Positions 2,280 through 50,940 of a stretch of 64,000 nt of DNA are shown piece by piece (position 1 is the stretch's first letter; the number at the start of each line of letters is the position of its first letter). Below the pieces are notes generated by a model. That model was not told where the DNA came from. It ran no database searches and saw only the letters and a list, made by a program, of their open reading frames with translations. The position numbers and the translations under genes are program-made. Source of the stretch: Thalassotalea nanhaiensis (GTDB lineage: Bacteria; Pseudomonadota; Gammaproteobacteria; Enterobacterales; Alteromonadaceae); NCBI RefSeq assembly GCF_031583575.1, contig NZ_CP134146.1, positions 992,001 to 1,056,000 on the forward strand, given 5' to 3'.

Positions 2280-5069
2280 TTAATAAATTGCCTGAATATT
2301 TTCTAGGTATTGATCTGAATTGTCTAAAACAGCATCCATTTCGTCAAATAATTCGAAAAATTCAGGTTCAAGAGTTTCTAAAGATGCGTGCTGTTTAATT
2401 TGTGCTTCAATGCTTTTAACAATTCGTTCAAGTCTAGGTACGCCCACATAACAACACGCTCCATTGAGTTTATGGACTAAGGTACCTGTTGTCGTTATAT
2501 CTTCCAAACGAACGTTATTTTGTAACGCGACTTTCATTTCTGGTAATGATTGAATTAACATAGTAAACATTTCTAAGGCTAAATCAATTTTGTTCGCTGA
2601 GCGACTTAATGATAATTCCCAGTCATAAATACCGTTAAAGTTATTAGGCAGCTGCTCTTTATTGTCAGTTAAGAGTTCAAGTTTTTTATTTTTAATAGGG
2701 GAGATTTTTTCAATACCAGAATGATCTAAAAGGATATTTTCCAGCAGTGATTCATCAATAGGTTTGGCTAAATAGGCATCAAAACCTTCTCTGATAAATC
2801 TCTCTCTTTCACCTGGTAATGCGTGAGCAGTAACTGCCGTTATACACGTTTCTACATTTAATGAATCTTCTTTAATTTTATTCATTGCGGTTATCCCATC
2901 CATTACCGGCATTTGAATATCCATTAAAATTAAATCGAATTTTTCCTTACAACATAAATCTAATGCTTCACGACCATCTTTCGCTATTTTAACGTTAGTT
3001 ACTTTTTGGTTGAGTAAACTTTCGATGAGTTTTAAATTTGCCTCATTATCATCAACAGCGAGTACCGATAAAGGGAACTTATGGTTGACGGTTAAGGGGC
3101 TGTCTATCGATGCAAATTCAATTAGAGTGTTATTCTGCAACATGGCATTTTTCAAGTTTTTATGAGTAATTGGTTTGGTTATACAAGATTGTGCACCTGA
3201 CTTTATAAACGTGTCTTTTAGGCTTAAAGAGTTACTGTTAATAGCGATGATTATTTTTGCAGATATCTCAGATAAACGCCCAATAAGATTTTGAATGTCA
3301 GTTATATTCGTCGTTGTCACTTGTTGCCCGACTAATGCGTAATCGAACTGCTGCTTTAACTGAGACTCGCTTAATTGTGAAATATTTTCCACAGCCGTGA
3401 TCTGCATATTCCAATGTTTTAAAATGGTCTCGGTAGCTTCCCTACTATGGACATGTTTCTCAATATATAAGATTGATTTATGTTCAAGCTCAAATGGTTC
3501 AATAATATTATCAACGGGCAATTGGTTAAGTTCAGTTTTGAACGTAAAGGTAAAACTAGATCCTTTGTGGGGTTGGCTGGTAAAAGTGATGTCACCTGCC
3601 ATTTCATTTGCTAACCGTTTAGCTATAACCAAGCCTAACCCTGTACCACCATATAAACGGGTAATACTTTTGTCTGCTTGTGAAAATGCTTCAAACAAGG
3701 TTTCTTCTTGCTTACTACTAATGCCTATGCCTGTATCAGTGACGATTAATGAAATAAGAACATCTGAACTTTCTTCGATAGAGTAGTCCACATCTACTTT
3801 AATAAACCCTTGGTTAGTAAATTTAATCGCATTACCCAATAAGTTGATCAGCACTTGTTTTACCCTTAATGAATCGCCTATTAATGAGTTTGGTAAATGT
3901 GGGTTTATATTTAATGATAACTCGAGGTTTTTACTATGAGCAGAAGCTGACACTAAAGTGATGACTTCATCGACGCTTTCTCTAAAACCAAATGGAATAT
4001 GCTCAATTGCCATTCGGCCTGAGTCTAGCTTAGAGAAATCAAGAATGTCGTTAATTATTGAAAGTAAGTTATTCGCAGAATTATCTATCGTTCCTAGGTA
4101 CTCGCGTTGAGTTTCAGTTAATGGAGTTTTTAATACTTGTCTGGTAAAACCGATAACACCGTTAAGTGGCGTGCGCAACTCGTGGCTCATATTCGCCAAA
4201 AATTCAGATTTTACTCTGTTTGCATCTTGGGCTTTTTTCTTAGCGAGATCTAATTGAACGTTTTGAACTTCAAATTGTTCTAAAGCCGTTCGTAAATCCC
4301 TTGTCGCTTGTTCTATGTTTAATTCTAAATCTAATTGATAATCTTCAATAGCTTGCGCCATATTATTAATACCAATTCGTAATATATCTAATTCACCTTC
4401 AAACTCTTCATCCATACGAGCGCCGAGAACGCCTTGACGGATTTGTAATACAATATCGTTCATTTCTTTGACCGGGCCGGAAATGATTAATACTAATCTA
4501 TTCGCAAAATTAGATGATAAGAATACGGCAAAAAAGACAGCCGAAAGCACAACTAGAACAAGCATTTGTTTGTCGAAAAGGGTTTCAGCTTTGCTGATTT
4601 CTATAACAAAATAGCCGTGATATTTGGGTTTTCGTTTTTCTTCACTTTGTGTGTAATCTGTCACAATAACAGGGGTGTATACAATAAAAGTACCAGCTGT
4701 TTCTCGTGTCATTGGTTTAATGAGCAAAAAGTCATTATCTAGTTTGTAATCAAGGAAATTGTTGGTGATGTTATTGCTATACAAATTAATATTTGAAGAA
4801 TCAAATAAAAGCAAACTAAGAACGCGTTCTGAATTTGTTCCATAGATATAGTCGTGGTAAGTCTCTAATCCTTCAATATCTTCTTTTTTAAGAAAATCTA
4901 CTGCCGTTACTGACATCGTTTGAGCAATATGGATGCCCCGATTAATTAAAGTTTGATTTACTTCTTCAACTCGAGTTAGAGCAAAATAAATACCTAAAAG
5001 TGTGCTAATTATTACTGTCGGGAGAACAGCAAATAAAATAACCCAGTCCTTGATAGTTATTTTTACCAT
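2280..5069 (-). CDS. barA: BarA-type hybrid sensor histidine kinase
   Basis: Inner-membrane tripartite hybrid kinase of 929 residues (E. coli BarA, 918). Order: membrane segment about 9-30, periplasmic loop, second membrane segment about 168-186, HAMP about 188-245, coiled coil, HisKA with phospho-accepting H296 in FLANMSHELRTPLNG, HATPase with N413, DTGIGI (445-450) and GGTGLGL (474-480), a degenerate receiver (about 530-650) lacking the phosphorylatable aspartate, an intact receiver with D717 in DLILMDIQMPVMDG, and an Hpt domain with H866. In relatives BarA phosphorylates UvrY/GacA, which drives transcription of CsrB/RsmY-type RNAs that sequester CsrA. The response regulator is not in this window. 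The gene is divergent from rlmD-relA, as in E. coli, which supports orthology. Confidence 0.9.
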   Translation of the reverse strand: MVKITIKDWVILFAVLPTVIISTLLGIYFALTRVEEVNQTLINRGIHIAQTMSVTAVDFLKKEDIEGLETYHDYIYGTNSERVLSLLLFDSSNINLYSNNITNNFLDYKLDNDFLLIKPMTRETAGTFIVYTPVIVTDYTQSEEKRKPKYHGYFVIEISKAETLFDKQMLVLVVLSAVFFAVFLSSNFANRLVLIISGPVKEMNDIVLQIRQGVLGARMDEEFEGELDILRIGINNMAQAIEDYQLDLELNIEQATRDLRTALEQFEVQNVQLDLAKKKAQDANRVKSEFLANMSHELRTPLNGVIGFTRQVLKTPLTETQREYLGTIDNSANNLLSIINDILDFSKLDSGRMAIEHIPFGFRESVDEVITLVSASAHSKNLELSLNINPHLPNSLIGDSLRVKQVLINLLGNAIKFTNQGFIKVDVDYSIEESSDVLISLIVTDTGIGISSKQEETLFEAFSQADKSITRLYGGTGLGLVIAKRLANEMAGDITFTSQPHKGSSFTFTFKTELNQLPVDNIIEPFELEHKSILYIEKHVHSREATETILKHWNMQITAVENISQLSESQLKQQFDYALVGQQVTTTNITDIQNLIGRLSEISAKIIIAINSNSLSLKDTFIKSGAQSCITKPITHKNLKNAMLQNNTLIEFASIDSPLTVNHKFPLSVLAVDDNEANLKLIESLLNQKVTNVKIAKDGREALDLCCKEKFDLILMDIQMPVMDGITAMNKIKEDSLNVETCITAVTAHALPGERERFIREGFDAYLAKPIDESLLENILLDHSGIEKISPIKNKKLELLTDNKEQLPNNFNGIYDWELSLSRSANKIDLALEMFTMLIQSLPEMKVALQNNVRLEDITTTGTLVHKLNGACCYVGVPRLERIVKSIEAQIKQHASLETLEPEFFELFDEMDAVLDNSDQYLENIQAIY

Positions 5070-21394: not shown

Positions 21395-21421
21395 AAAAAA
21401 CCAGCATTACGCTGGTTTTTT
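21395..21421 (+). terminator. Intrinsic terminator of rpoS
   Basis: CCAGC (21401-21405) and GCTGG (21411-21415) flanked by runs of A and T form a bipolar hairpin around ATTAC, ending in a T tract. The repeat array starts at the next base. Confidence 0.92.
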
Positions 21422-21571
21422 ACTTCATGGACGAAGGAATGCAAATCACCATGGATGGTATTAGATTTGTAACTTCATGGACGAAGGAATGCAAATCACC
21501 ATGGATGGTATTAGATTTGTAACTTCATGGACGAAGGAATATCAATCTAACATGGATGTTAAAAGATTGAT
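21422..21571 (+). repeat. Terminator-linked tandem hairpin array after rpoS (50 bp unit)
   Basis: Two identical 50 bp units start at 21422 and 21472, and a diverged third starts at 21522. Each unit has hairpin A (CTTC-ATGGAC-GAAG) and hairpin B with CATGGATG at its tip. In units 1-2 the hairpin B arms are CAAATC/GATTTG; in unit 3 they are ATCAATCT/AGATTGAT, so both arms changed together and pairing is kept. All six loops match CANGGANG. The array reads in the sense direction of rpoS and ends 28 bases before the mutS stop codon. Confidence 0.9.
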
Positions 21572-21598
21572 TTAAATTATCTAAATACATTTAGTTAT

Positions 21599-25620: not shown

Positions 25621-25645
25621 ACCCGCTCAATTGAGCGGGTTTTTT
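25621..25645 (+). terminator. Intrinsic terminator of recA
   Basis: Perfect palindrome ACCCGCTCAATTGAGCGGGT (25621-25640) preceded by A residues and followed by T residues to 25645. It lies about 30 bases after the recA stop codon; the repeat array starts immediately after the T tract. Confidence 0.95.
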
Positions 25646-25780
25646 ACTTCAGGGACGAAGTAATGCCAACCTGACAGGGATGTTACAAGGTTGGCTCACT
25701 TCAGGGACGAAGGAATGCCAACCTGACAGGGATGTTACAAGGTTGACTCACTTCAGGGACGAAGAAATACAACCCCAACG
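25646..25780 (+). repeat. Terminator-linked tandem hairpin array after recA (52 bp unit)
   Basis: Units start at 25646, 25698 and 25750 (period 52); the third is partial. Hairpin A is CTTC-AGGGAC-GAAG. Hairpin B has arms GCCAACCT/AGGTTGGC enclosing GACAGGGATGTTACA, which contains ACAGGGATGT, identical to the core of the E. coli CsrA SELEX consensus. Five CANGGANG motifs are present. Stem B differs from the other arrays while the loop motif is constant. The rest of the recA-metA gap (25781-25929) shows nothing recognisable. Confidence 0.9.
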
Positions 25781-35239: not shown

Positions 35240-35256
35240 AAAGGGGCAAATGGATG
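35240..35256 (+). promoter_or_regulatory. csrA ribosome binding region with GGA motif (possible autoregulation)
   Basis: AAAAGGGGCAAATGGATG places a strong ribosome binding site six bases before an out-of-frame ATG (35250) and ten before the true csrA ATG (35254). The overlapping ATGGATG is an ANGGA core. E. coli CsrA represses its own translation by binding GGA sites in this region, so the same is plausible here. No supporting hairpin is evident, so this is inference. Confidence 0.4.
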
Positions 35257-35448
35257 CTTATATTAACAAGAAGAGTTGGTGAAACTCTTATGGTCGGTGA
35301 CGATGTTACTGTGACCGTTTTAGGGGTAAAAGGGAACCAAGTCCGTATCGGTGTCAATGCACCTAAAGAAGTGTCTGTTCATCGTGAAGAGATTTACATG
35401 CGCATACAAGCTGAAAAGGGTAATCCAGACAATGTTGGTAACGAGTAA
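35254..35448 (+). CDS. csrA: Carbon storage regulator CsrA
   Basis: Homodimeric RNA-binding protein that controls translation and mRNA stability by binding GGA-containing hairpin loops. The 64 residues begin [18 protein letters not shown]4 and R44 (in [12 protein letters not shown]), the residues that contact RNA in studied homologues, are present. Length is typical. It lies downstream of alaS-lysC and upstream of tRNA-Ser/tRNA-Arg, as in E. coli. Its natural antagonists are RNAs with many GGA loops. The arrays after rpoS, recA, secF and suhB in this window carry such loops. Confidence 0.98.
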
Positions 35449-46948: not shown

Positions 46949-47896
46949 ATGCAAATCTTAAAACTTAAAGAAACCGTAGCCTTCATGTCGTACCGAAAGC
47001 TAGCTTCTATATTTAGTATCATTTTAATCATTGCCTCGCTAACGTCATTAGCAACCAATAAGCTTAATTGGGGCCTTGATTTTACTGGTGGTACCTTACT
47101 AGAGATTGGTTTTGATCAACCTGCCGATTTAGGTAAAATTCGCACCGTTTTGGAAACGGGTGGGTTTGATGATGCGGTTGTGCAATTATTTGGTAACCCA
47201 AATGATGTACTTATTCGTCTAGGTCAACGCGAAAACCTAAAAGCCGAAATGTTAGGCAACCAAATATTAGGTGTACTTGAACAAGGCACAGGTCAAACTA
47301 TTGATATGCGCCGTATTGAATTTGTTGGTGCAAATGTAGGTGATGAGCTAACAGAGCAAGGTGGACTTGCGATGTTAACAGCGTTGATATGTATTTTAGT
47401 GTATGTTGCTTTTCGTTTTGAATGGCGCTTCGCACTAGGTTCTGTAACGGCCCTAGCTCATGATGTTATTTTAACGTTAGGCTTATTTTCATTCTTGGGT
47501 TTAGAGTTCGATTTAACCGTTTTAGCGGCAATACTTGCGGTAATTGGTTATTCACTAAATGATACGATTGTTGTTTCTGACCGTATTCGTGAAAACTTCA
47601 GAAAAGTGCGTAAAGGTACACCTGAAGAAATCATCAATATATCTTTAACTCAAACGTTAAGCCGTACAATGATCACGTCACTAACAACATTTTTAGTATT
47701 GCTTGCCTTATTCTTTAAAGGCGGGGCACTAATTCACGGTTTTTCAACCGCATTGTTGTTTGGTATCGTTGTAGGTACATACTCATCTATCTATGTAGCT
47801 TCTACTGTTGCATTGGGGTTAGGTATTTCGAAAGAAGACTTAATTCCTGAAGTGATTGAAAAAGAAGGTGCTGATCAAGAAGAGCTACGTATGTAA
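46949..47896 (+). CDS. secF: Protein translocase subunit SecF
   Basis: Second RND subunit of the SecDF complex. The 315 residues have an N-terminal membrane helix, the signature LNWGLDFTGGTLLEIGF, a periplasmic domain and five C-terminal helices with YSLNDTIVVSDRIRENFRK, the SecF counterpart of the SecD motif. It ends the queA-tgt-yajC-secD-secF cluster. A strong terminator follows, and then the longest CsrA-site-like hairpin array of the window. Confidence 0.97.
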   Translation: MQILKLKETVAFMSYRKLASIFSIILIIASLTSLATNKLNWGLDFTGGTLLEIGFDQPADLGKIRTVLETGGFDDAVVQLFGNPNDVLIRLGQRENLKAEMLGNQILGVLEQGTGQTIDMRRIEFVGANVGDELTEQGGLAMLTALICILVYVAFRFEWRFALGSVTALAHDVILTLGLFSFLGLEFDLTVLAAILAVIGYSLNDTIVVSDRIRENFRKVRKGTPEEIINISLTQTLSRTMITSLTTFLVLLALFFKGGALIHGFSTALLFGIVVGTYSSIYVASTVALGLGISKEDLIPEVIEKEGADQEELRM

Positions 47897-47920
47897 GCGC
47901 ATCTAGAAAACATAAAAAGA

Positions 47921-47944
47921 AACCAGGCATGTCCTGGTTTTTTT
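47921..47944 (+). terminator. Intrinsic terminator of the secDF operon
   Basis: AACCAGG (47921-47927) pairs with CCTGGTT (47933-47939) around CATGT, with a T tract to 47944. The repeat array begins one or two bases later. Confidence 0.9.
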
Positions 47945-47945
47945 A

Positions 47946-48206
47946 TTTCAGGGATGAAATAACTTAGAATTGCCATGGATGGCATAAATTCTGTTATCAG
48001 GGATGAAATAACTTAGAATTGCCATGGATGGCATAAATTCTGTTATCAGGGATGAAATAACTTAGAATTGCCATGGATGGCATAAATTCTGTTATCAGGG
48101 ATGAAATAACTTAGCATTGCCATGGATGGCTTAAATTCTGTTATCAGGGATGAAATAACTTAGAATTTCCATGGATGGCTCAAATTCTGTTATAAGGGAT
48201 GAAGTG
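47946..48206 (+). repeat. Terminator-linked tandem hairpin array after secF (49 bp unit, five copies)
   Basis: Five complete 49 bp units and a partial sixth. The CAGGGATG motif recurs at 47949, 47998, 48047, 48096 and 48145, with AAGGGATG at 48194. Each unit also has GCCATGGATGGC or a close variant, enclosed by AGAATT/AAATTCT arms. In units 1-3 the copies are identical; units 4 and 5 carry point changes. There are ten CANGGANG motifs. The array reads in the sense direction of secF, and the first unit has a TTTC-AGGGAT-GAAA hairpin. The 69 bases from here to the cobA end show nothing recognisable. Confidence 0.92.
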
Positions 48207-48275
48207 TGCGAGAACAAGAAACGGCCACACATTGTTCCCTTGGTTGGTCCTAATTTATTAGGACGTAATGTAAAC

Positions 48276-49127
48276 CTATCCCAATTCAGAAAGAGTTTGG
48301 ATAACGTTATTCTTAGGTGCGAAGAATGCAGGCTGCTCGGCATCGTTTACATCTGCTAATGCTTGTTGGTTTATGGCATTAACCACATCGCCTATGACTA
48401 ATAAACTTGGTGGTTTGATCTCGTTAGTCGCAACTGTATTGGGTAATTTATTTAAGGTTGTGCGCCAAACTTGCTGATCGTTTTGAGTGCCTTTGCGAAT
48501 TATTGCAACTGGAGTTTGCTCATCTCTACCATGAGCTATTAATTGCTGAGAAATAGTTGTCGCACTTTTTACTCCCATATAAAAAACGAGAGTTTGCGTT
48601 TTATCTGCGTAATTGCTCCAAGGTAGGGATAACTCACCATCATGGCTAAAATGACCAGTAATAAAACTACAACTGTGTGCAACATCACGATGAGTTAATG
48701 GAATTCCTGCATAAGTCGTTGCGCCTGAAGCTGATGTAATCCCCGGAATGACATGGCTAGCAATGCCATGCTCTAATAGGTAGTTTACTTCTTCAGAGCC
48801 ACGACCAAAAATAAAACTATCTCCACCTTTTAAACGAACAACTTTTTTACCTTTTTGTGCCCACTCAACGATTGTGTCATTAATCTTTTCTTGGGTAACG
48901 CAATGTTTATGAATCGCTTTACCCACATATATTCTGCGACAAGTTTGAGGTGTTAACATCAAAATTTCATTACTTACTAGCCGGTCATATATTACAACCT
49001 CGGCATTTTGTATAAAACGTAATGCTTTAAGTGTTAGCAATTCGGCATCTCCAGGCCCCGCGCCAATTAAGGCTACTTCGCCAGCGGAAAATTTTGATTT
49101 ACTATTTATGTTGCTAAGAATATTCAT
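48276..49127 (-). CDS. cobA: Uroporphyrinogen-III C-methyltransferase
   Basis: SAM-dependent enzyme that methylates uroporphyrinogen III twice to give precorrin-2, the branch point to siroheme and cobalamin. The 283-residue stand-alone form (not the CysG fusion) has GAGPGDAELLTLKALRFIQ, YDRLVS, VRLKGGDSFIFGRG with the SAM-binding GGD, and PGITSASGATTYAGIPLTHR. C-terminal residues after about 255 are unlike the core and probably disordered. It is convergent with secF and divergent from the M24 peptidase gene (226-base gap). Siroheme for sulfite reductase is a likely role, given no other cobalamin genes in view. Confidence 0.92.
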   Translation of the reverse strand: MNILSNINSKSKFSAGEVALIGAGPGDAELLTLKALRFIQNAEVVIYDRLVSNEILMLTPQTCRRIYVGKAIHKHCVTQEKINDTIVEWAQKGKKVVRLKGGDSFIFGRGSEEVNYLLEHGIASHVIPGITSASGATTYAGIPLTHRDVAHSCSFITGHFSHDGELSLPWSNYADKTQTLVFYMGVKSATTISQQLIAHGRDEQTPVAIIRKGTQNDQQVWRTTLNKLPNTVATNEIKPPSLLVIGDVVNAINQQALADVNDAEQPAFFAPKNNVIQTLSELG

Positions 49128-50730: not shown

Positions 50731-50940
50731 GTTACAAACTTAAAGCGTTTTTCAACATGGATGTTGTGTATGCCGTGAACGCAAGGAAGCATAAGAACGG
50801 TCCATGGCCAAGCCCTCCCTTTGCGCCATCCATTAAGGTTACAAACTTAAAGCCATCCATGGCAGTTTGCATTCCTTCATCCCTGAAGTAAAAACAAAAA
50901 TTGCTCCATGCATTTTTGTCATATAGGCCATCCTTGGCCA
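50731..50940 (-). repeat. Terminator-linked hairpin array after suhB (diverged copies, minus strand)
   Basis: Read on the minus strand directly after the suhB terminator: GGCC-AAGGAT-GGCC; a long stem (ACAAAAAT/ATTTTTGT) with loop ATGGA; CTTC-AGGGAT-GAAG; then CAAACTGCC-ATGGAT-GGC ending in AAGTTTG; followed by degenerate copies to about 50731. Three perfect CANGGANG motifs occur on the minus strand and near matches follow. At the far end CAACATGGATGTTG (50753-50766) presents the motif on the plus strand, the sense strand of the upstream peptidase gene. This is the most degraded of the four arrays. Confidence 0.8.

Follow-up and report, generated by a model that had tools for sequence, protein, structure and literature searches.

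Results

An array of GGA hairpins behind the secF terminator

The window, i.e. the whole stretch of 64,000 nucleotides of the Thalassotalea nanhaiensis chromosome analysed here, carries secF on its plus strand (46949..47896; Pfam SecD_SecF_C and Sec_GG), a gene whose closest six loci by SecF similarity (84-89%) all belong to Thalassotalea. It is followed by an intrinsic terminator (47920..47944, plus strand) consisting of an AAACCAGG/CCTGGTTT stem and a 7-T run at 47938-47944, which is also terminator-like on the minus strand, the only strand listed by a generic terminator scan. Behind this terminator lies a tandem array of five 49-bp units (47944..48193, plus strand; TRF, site list and covariance model), each containing two hairpins with C-ANGGAT-G loops. 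The array holds ten CANGGANG sites across 47949-48177, with CAGGGATG at 47949, 47998, 48047, 48096 and 48145 and CATGGATG at 47974, 48023, 48072, 48121 and 48170, so that the spacing of the loop starts alternates between 25 and 24 nt; the loop letters are AGGGAT in hairpin 1 and ATGGAT in hairpin 2. A degenerate eleventh site, AAGGGATG, marks the 3′ end (48194..48201, plus strand), and TRF reports a repeat at 47948-48203 with period 49, 5.2 copies and 97% matches. Sequence and TRF thus confirm the five units and ten sites described in an earlier sequence-only reading of this DNA. The GCC/GGC clamp noted there is present in four of the five units, the fifth having TCC/GGC, and although no array in the window is longer, the genome has one of six units at G000:C1:2204699.

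The window as a whole contains 33 CANGGANG matches compared to 14.9 +/- 3.5 in 100 shuffles (largest shuffle 26). Members of the secF-array family lie at three further positions: an array with six CANGGANG sites behind the terminator of a gene encoding Sigma70 regions 2-4 (Pfam), which size and neighbours identify as rpoS (21421..21574, plus strand; site list and covariance model), an array with five sites behind the recA terminator (25645..25761, plus strand; site list and model, RecA Pfam), and a single unit downstream of an inositol-monophosphatase (suhB-like) gene (50838..50890, minus strand; model and Pfam). This single unit is preceded by another GGA hairpin and fails the strict terminator test defined below. 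The proposed binding protein is encoded in the same window by csrA (35254..35448, plus strand; 64 aa), an assignment confirmed by Pfam CsrA with 89.6 bits. The gene read earlier as barA encodes a 929-aa hybrid histidine kinase (2280-5069) consistent with BarA, although its identity as BarA is unproven. We also observed, at 50756-50789 (plus strand), a copy of a second type of repeat that faces the minus-strand unit downstream of the suhB-like gene; the two genes converge, each having a sense-oriented hairpin repeat. A 16-bp tandem repeat, TTCGGATACGCTGCGC, is present in 3.2 copies at 2178-2230 (TRF).

A dispersed repeat family placed at terminators

The motif CAKGGATG occurs 392 times in the 4.31-Mb chromosome containing the window (G000), compared to 121 occurrences of the reversed control. 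With a covariance model trained on 12 copies of the unit and matches taken at E up to 1, we identified at least 148 units there (150 candidates scored), which cluster into 92 places and hold 270 intact CANGGANG sites. Unit number differs between places by tandem copy change, with one unit in 57 places, two in 22 and three to six in 13. Only the four places named above, downstream of rpoS, recA, secF and the suhB-like gene, lie inside the window and 88 lie outside, showing that the arrays form a family dispersed over the chromosome. A literature search, with most subscription journals outside its coverage, found no description of such repeats.

The placement of the units is near-exact. Applying a strict terminator test (T-run of at least 4, stem of at least 5 pairs including 3 G-C), we found a terminator T-run ending at the start of the first unit in 71 of the 92 places, with an identical offset in 69, while controls at the same loci gave 31/4550 for intergenic positions, 12/4434 for random positions and 9/6532 for positions 5-40 nt off. 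The remaining 21 places fail the test. The secF place passes it; there the model match of the first unit begins at the final T of the run. By eye, the terminators preceding the units look unrelated in sequence. The same placement was observed in four other Thalassotalea genomes, in which 32 of 40 loci chosen from the best-scoring matches lie at the end of a terminator T-run (G300 18/20, G297 7/10, G301 5/5, G302 2/5; control 10/3973). The pattern TTTTTN{2,6}CANGGANG occurs 179 times in G000 compared to 12 times for the reversed control, forward counts including overlapping starts; within a sample of 393 genomes of the order that contains no Thalassotalea besides G000, the next highest by eye are G023 (55 versus 19) and G133 (43 versus 14). 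Terminator-linked CANGGANG placement is thus mostly a feature of G000 within this sample.

The gene upstream is sense to the GGA strand in 83 of the 92 places, with a median distance of 54 nt from its stop codon (simple ORF calls). The earlier suggestion of arrays dispersed behind terminators is therefore borne out genome-wide, and the arrays run sense to their upstream genes. A role as 5′ leader of the downstream gene is not favoured, since that gene has the same direction in 50 of all 92 places and the opposite direction in 42. An unlikely explanation of the arrays is a cis-acting 3′ element, in which CsrA bound to the read-through RNA would alter decay or Rho-dependent stopping of that very transcript, or shield the neighbouring gene, and no global sink would exist. 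The sense orientation, the convergent downstream gene in 35 of the 83 sense places and the presence of a single unit at 57/92 places are consistent with such an element, whereas the other 48 have a co-directional downstream gene. Moreover, the same genes in relatives often lack the element and are therefore independent of it.

Conserved loops in covarying hairpins

Each unit forms two hairpins, both with an A-N-G-G-A-N loop closed by C-G. The stem of hairpin 1 comprises 4-5 pairs. In hairpin 2, three apical pairs are combined with a lower stem of roughly six pairs and a 3′-side bulge of 3-4 nt. Counting letters only, over 116 distinct G000 units (8 of 129 rows were dropped for long inserts), positions 1, 3, 4 and 5 of the first loop are A, G, G and A in 114/114, 113/114, 112/114 and 113/114 cases; position 2 is variable (G65/T29/A18/C2) and position 6 mostly T, C or A. 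The second loop has A 112/113, a mixed N, G 109/112, G 103/110 and A 108/110. Part of this conservation is ascertainment, as intact sites were used to seed the model. In 63 distinct rows from other species the corresponding counts are A 60/60, G 61/61, G 60/60 and A 60/60 for the first loop and A 63/63, G 62/63, G 62/63 and A 61/61 for the second. Two intact, correctly spaced loops are absent from 24 of the 116 distinct G000 units.

The stems covary. For the G000 alignment, comprising 84 of the 88 loci outside the window plus the window, the covariation score is 0.363 compared to 0.149 +/- 0.007 for shuffled and at most 0.091 for slid alignments, with 253 both-sides-changed cells compared to 82.8 after shuffling, and for the other-species alignment it is 0.428 compared to 0.165 (shuffled) and at most 0.097 (slid); both alignments lean towards the model because they were fitted to it, and the copies are also related. 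G-T pairs exceed A-C pairs in the stems of both sets taken together (40 versus 17; p = 0.003, relatedness ignored) and in the other-species set (15 versus 4), the excess in G000 alone being non-significant (25 versus 13, p = 0.07; in another count 25 versus 14, p = 0.11). The G-T excess makes the GGA strand the more probable of the two to fold. A first pair count without strand signal (G-T 50 versus A-C 56) was dropped as it mixed the two hairpins.

Folding of 92 units one at a time predicts an unpaired GGA in 93% for hairpin 1 and in 90% for hairpin 2, and in 66 of the 92 the two C-G closing pairs each lie above 0.5; the folds often pair the loop A with U, leaving an NGGA tetraloop. The z-scores of single units are equal on both strands (-2.4 and -2.5). 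Folding the whole five-unit array results in long-range pairs rather than separate hairpins, with z of -2.2 for the sense and -5.8 for the antisense strand.

The loops resemble the CsrA hairpin consensus. One CsrA dimer is able to bridge about 24-25 nt between two sites, and CAGGGATG is an exact match to CARGGAUG; among the loop types listed, exact CARGGATG is present in 43/92 first and 29/92 second loops. The CsrA SELEX report gives the consensus RUACARGGAUGU, with six-nt loops in 44 of 55 ligands and ACA and GGA fully conserved (PMC7652899). The ANGGAN loops of the units, with their C-G closure, closely resemble this form; a difference is that SELEX keeps ACA before RGGA, whereas the units usually have T or C before that C and N is often T. 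Resemblance to the consensus and covariation of the stems both speak for the earlier interpretation, which is supported in part.

Comparison with CsrB-type genes and other CsrA-binding RNAs

The sequence-only reading had likened the array to CsrB/RsmZ sponge RNAs. The part of this comparison concerning GGA motifs in loops stands: the ten C-ANGGAT-G sites provide several GGA hairpin loops as found in CsrB/CsrC, and the many GGA loops with proposed CsrA sequestration are shared with CsrB, CsrC and RsmX-Y-Z (RF00018 and kin). A stretch with ten to eleven GGA loops, in a window that also encodes CsrA and a BarA-like kinase, would also suit an ordinary CsrB/RsmZ-type sRNA gene. We nevertheless regard such a gene as highly improbable. 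No sigma-70-like promoter was predicted at 47800-48400, and this region holds only the secF terminator hairpin and no terminator belonging to the array. Up to E 10, Rfam CsrB does not match the secF array, and its search over G000, the check proposed for a canonical CsrB-type RNA, yielded no match above the cut-off of 71 bits, the best being 20 bits (E 0.003) at G000:C1:613378. We rejected this candidate, which by eye is a terminator plus the end of a minus-strand gene. Two 8.7-bit CsrB matches fall on a secF-family array at 873.8-874.0 kb. The UvrY/GacA box TGTRAGN6CTYACA occurs at one place in G000 (2706422), away from the secF array and by eye without a GGA-rich stretch beside it. A CsrB/RsmZ-type gene is unsupported because neither a promoter nor an own terminator was predicted at the array, Rfam scores stay below the cut-off and the UvrY box lacks a GGA-rich stretch. 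Furthermore, among 80 named relatives no such array was found near secF; L045 alone has paired CANGGANG sites there, which differ in kind and lie on the opposite strand. Compared to CsrB, CsrC and RsmX-Y-Z, the repeat occurs in about 90 short copies behind the terminators of other genes, and the secF array comes without predicted promoter, own terminator or UvrY box.

Two further RNAs merit comparison. TwoAYGGAY RNA (RF01731), proposed as CsrA-binding (PMC4333381), has two hairpins with A-Y-G-G-A-Y loops; the repeat also has two hairpins, with ANGGAN loops that read AGGGAT (hairpin 1) and ATGGAT (hairpin 2) in the secF array. Its Rfam model includes further helices around the hairpins, whereas the repeat units stand in tandem and after terminators; the secF array reaches 23.1 bits compared to the cut-off of 43, and the model has three sub-cut-off matches in G000 (20.0-22.2 bits), all on secF-family arrays. 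The closest working precedent for a CsrA-binding read-through RNA is provided by the E. coli sRNAs RrA, RrB and RrF, which are reported to be made by read-through of a first terminator and bound by CsrA (PMC8144298). They belong to three rRNA operons only, with a second terminator following and no dispersed repeat, and their deletion has modest effects, which calls for caution in reading the repeat as a decoy. A Pseudoalteromonas Csr sRNA study reports an sRNA, Pf3, that partly matches Thalassotalea sp. LPB0316 (PMC11882849).

Presence, absence and possible mobility in Thalassotalea

Units are found in 12 of 15 Thalassotalea genomes (E up to 0.001) with 2 to 133 copies, and the family is dispensable, since three genomes have none. 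After secF, the model finds no unit in 13 of the 14 other genomes of the genus; G297 has a single unit plus another hairpin repeat. A conserved 3′ element of secF is thereby rejected. In G300 the secF gene is followed by a T-run and, within a few bases, by sequence similar to what lies past the array in G000 (GAGAAACGGCCACACG...), and in G296 by an CATCAGGGATGATG hairpin, though without a model match; the secF-downstream sequences of G301 and G302 are the same as those of Thalassotalea sp. ND16A and sp. 42_200_T64. Downstream of rpoS, units in array direction are found only in G000 among 14 genomes (G305 left out), and downstream of recA in G000 and G300 among 14 genomes (G307 left out), in different subfamilies. 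Where the same gene could be read in G000 and in another genome (ten pairs), four pairs carry different subfamilies and six similar ones. We also identified dialects whose stems differ while the loops, the 25-nt spacing and the location behind a T-run are shared: one in G298 (L293), located behind the recA terminator and missed by the model in a genome without any unit match, and one in G302 (L289/L315), located behind a mutS-side terminator and scoring 37 bits. The arrays are dispersed as proposed earlier, and what that proposal missed is that they behave like an insertion-specific repeat whose presence varies between related species.

The T-run junctions at 71/92 and 32/40 loci and the element-free secF site in G300 are as expected of insertion targeted to intrinsic terminators. 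The main rival of a CsrA decoy is accordingly a selfish repeat acting at the DNA level, whose ssDNA hairpins would be recognised by a hairpin-binding transposase or reverse transcriptase targeting terminator hairpins and whose likeness to CsrA sites would be coincidental or secondary. We consider it rather improbable. In its favour are exact placement at unrelated terminators, presence and absence between related species, different subfamilies at 4/10 readable same-gene pairs and an inverted second repeat that joins the units in the same way at 22/92 places; covariation and one folded strand are equally expected for ssDNA. Against it stand the conserved A-N-G-G-A with free N and C-G closure, which is the CsrA requirement, and the distribution of Y1 transposases (PF01797), which do not track copy number: G000, G297 and G300 have one each, and the unit-free genomes G303, G298 and G299 have two, two and one. 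A RAYT transposase was rejected as the mover, as these counts do not fit.

REP/BIME palindromes with their RAYT transposases are short, dispersed, located downstream of genes and variable between species. The repeat resembles them as a dispersed short palindromic element 3′ of genes, in sense orientation at 83/92 places, and differs in its exact terminator targeting and in a loop resembling a protein-binding RNA consensus. Group IIC introns insert next to intrinsic terminators; the repeat units, of about 50 bp, are far too short for an intron.

The junction counted above was observed with the pattern CANGG[AG]CC[AG][CT]TC, which we set ourselves (22/92 G000 places, e.g. G000:C1:1130507 and 3548426), and is a second, inverted hairpin repeat joined at the apex of a GGA hairpin. 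It lies mostly at hairpin 2, in several stem subfamilies, with a few places involving other hairpin repeats, and by eye the 3′ arm resumes after the inverted repeat in some places. Among 14 loci around Y1 genes, paired sites are found only in L272, behind a gene which we take to be galU-like. Here a 244-aa Y1-type transposase-like protein (1990-2724; 25 bits to PF01797) adjoins the galU-like gene, which is followed by a terminator and then a GGA hairpin array. Single hairpin-like sites near the Y1 gene occur in similar sequence in L272-L275 and L277.

A possible distributed decoy of CsrA

As the best explanation of these observations we favour a model according to which the secF array would be one copy of a dispersed, terminator-targeted Thalassotalea repeat family whose read-through RNA would capture CsrA as a distributed decoy, a reading whose chances we judge to be evenly balanced. 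New copies would arise at the 3′ edge of the T-run, as suggested by their position and the element-free site in a related genome, and would then grow or shrink by tandem duplication, as unit-number differences suggest. Read-through would produce a 3′ extension in which each unit contributes two putative CsrA sites; spaced by about 24-25 nt, these might be bridged by one dimer. Summed over about 90 places, these sites may act as a decoy whose strength would track expression and read-through of the genes concerned, including rpoS, recA and secF. CsrA binding, sufficient read-through RNA and summed decoy action are the inferred steps of this model; RNA yield may be small, because most transcripts should stop before the array. 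A bolder version remains tentative: a mobile terminator-targeted repeat, parasitic or domesticated, might spread CsrA-binding hairpins in stem dialects that differ between lineages, with the ANGGAN loop pair and the place after the T-run retained, and set the effective CsrA level via the summed read-through of dozens of genes.

Known CsrA decoys are few dedicated sRNA genes. If the decoy model is true, a dispersed repeat element can rewire a global regulator, terminator read-through yields a regulatory product, and a global post-transcriptional regulator is coupled to termination efficiency. A single genus with 0 to 133 units provides a natural comparison. The family may also shed light on TwoAYGGAY, an orphan in Rfam with hairpins of similar appearance.

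Related elements in other genera

The pattern CAGGGATGN{10,24}CANGGATG is present in 90 of 295 genomes of the order, a count that stands without control. The elements found in other genera resemble TwoAYGGAY, with 2 of the 20 loci given passing the cut-off, and by eye no terminator precedes them in the sequence inspected. Dispersed double-hairpin elements with CANGGATG loops were observed in G250, G101, G085, G269, G272 and G037 (L230-L241, L250-L267), often with a GAGC-like junction, and some of those in G272 recur every 392 bp. L269 contains a JUMPstart element (Rfam) on the minus strand at 70-107.
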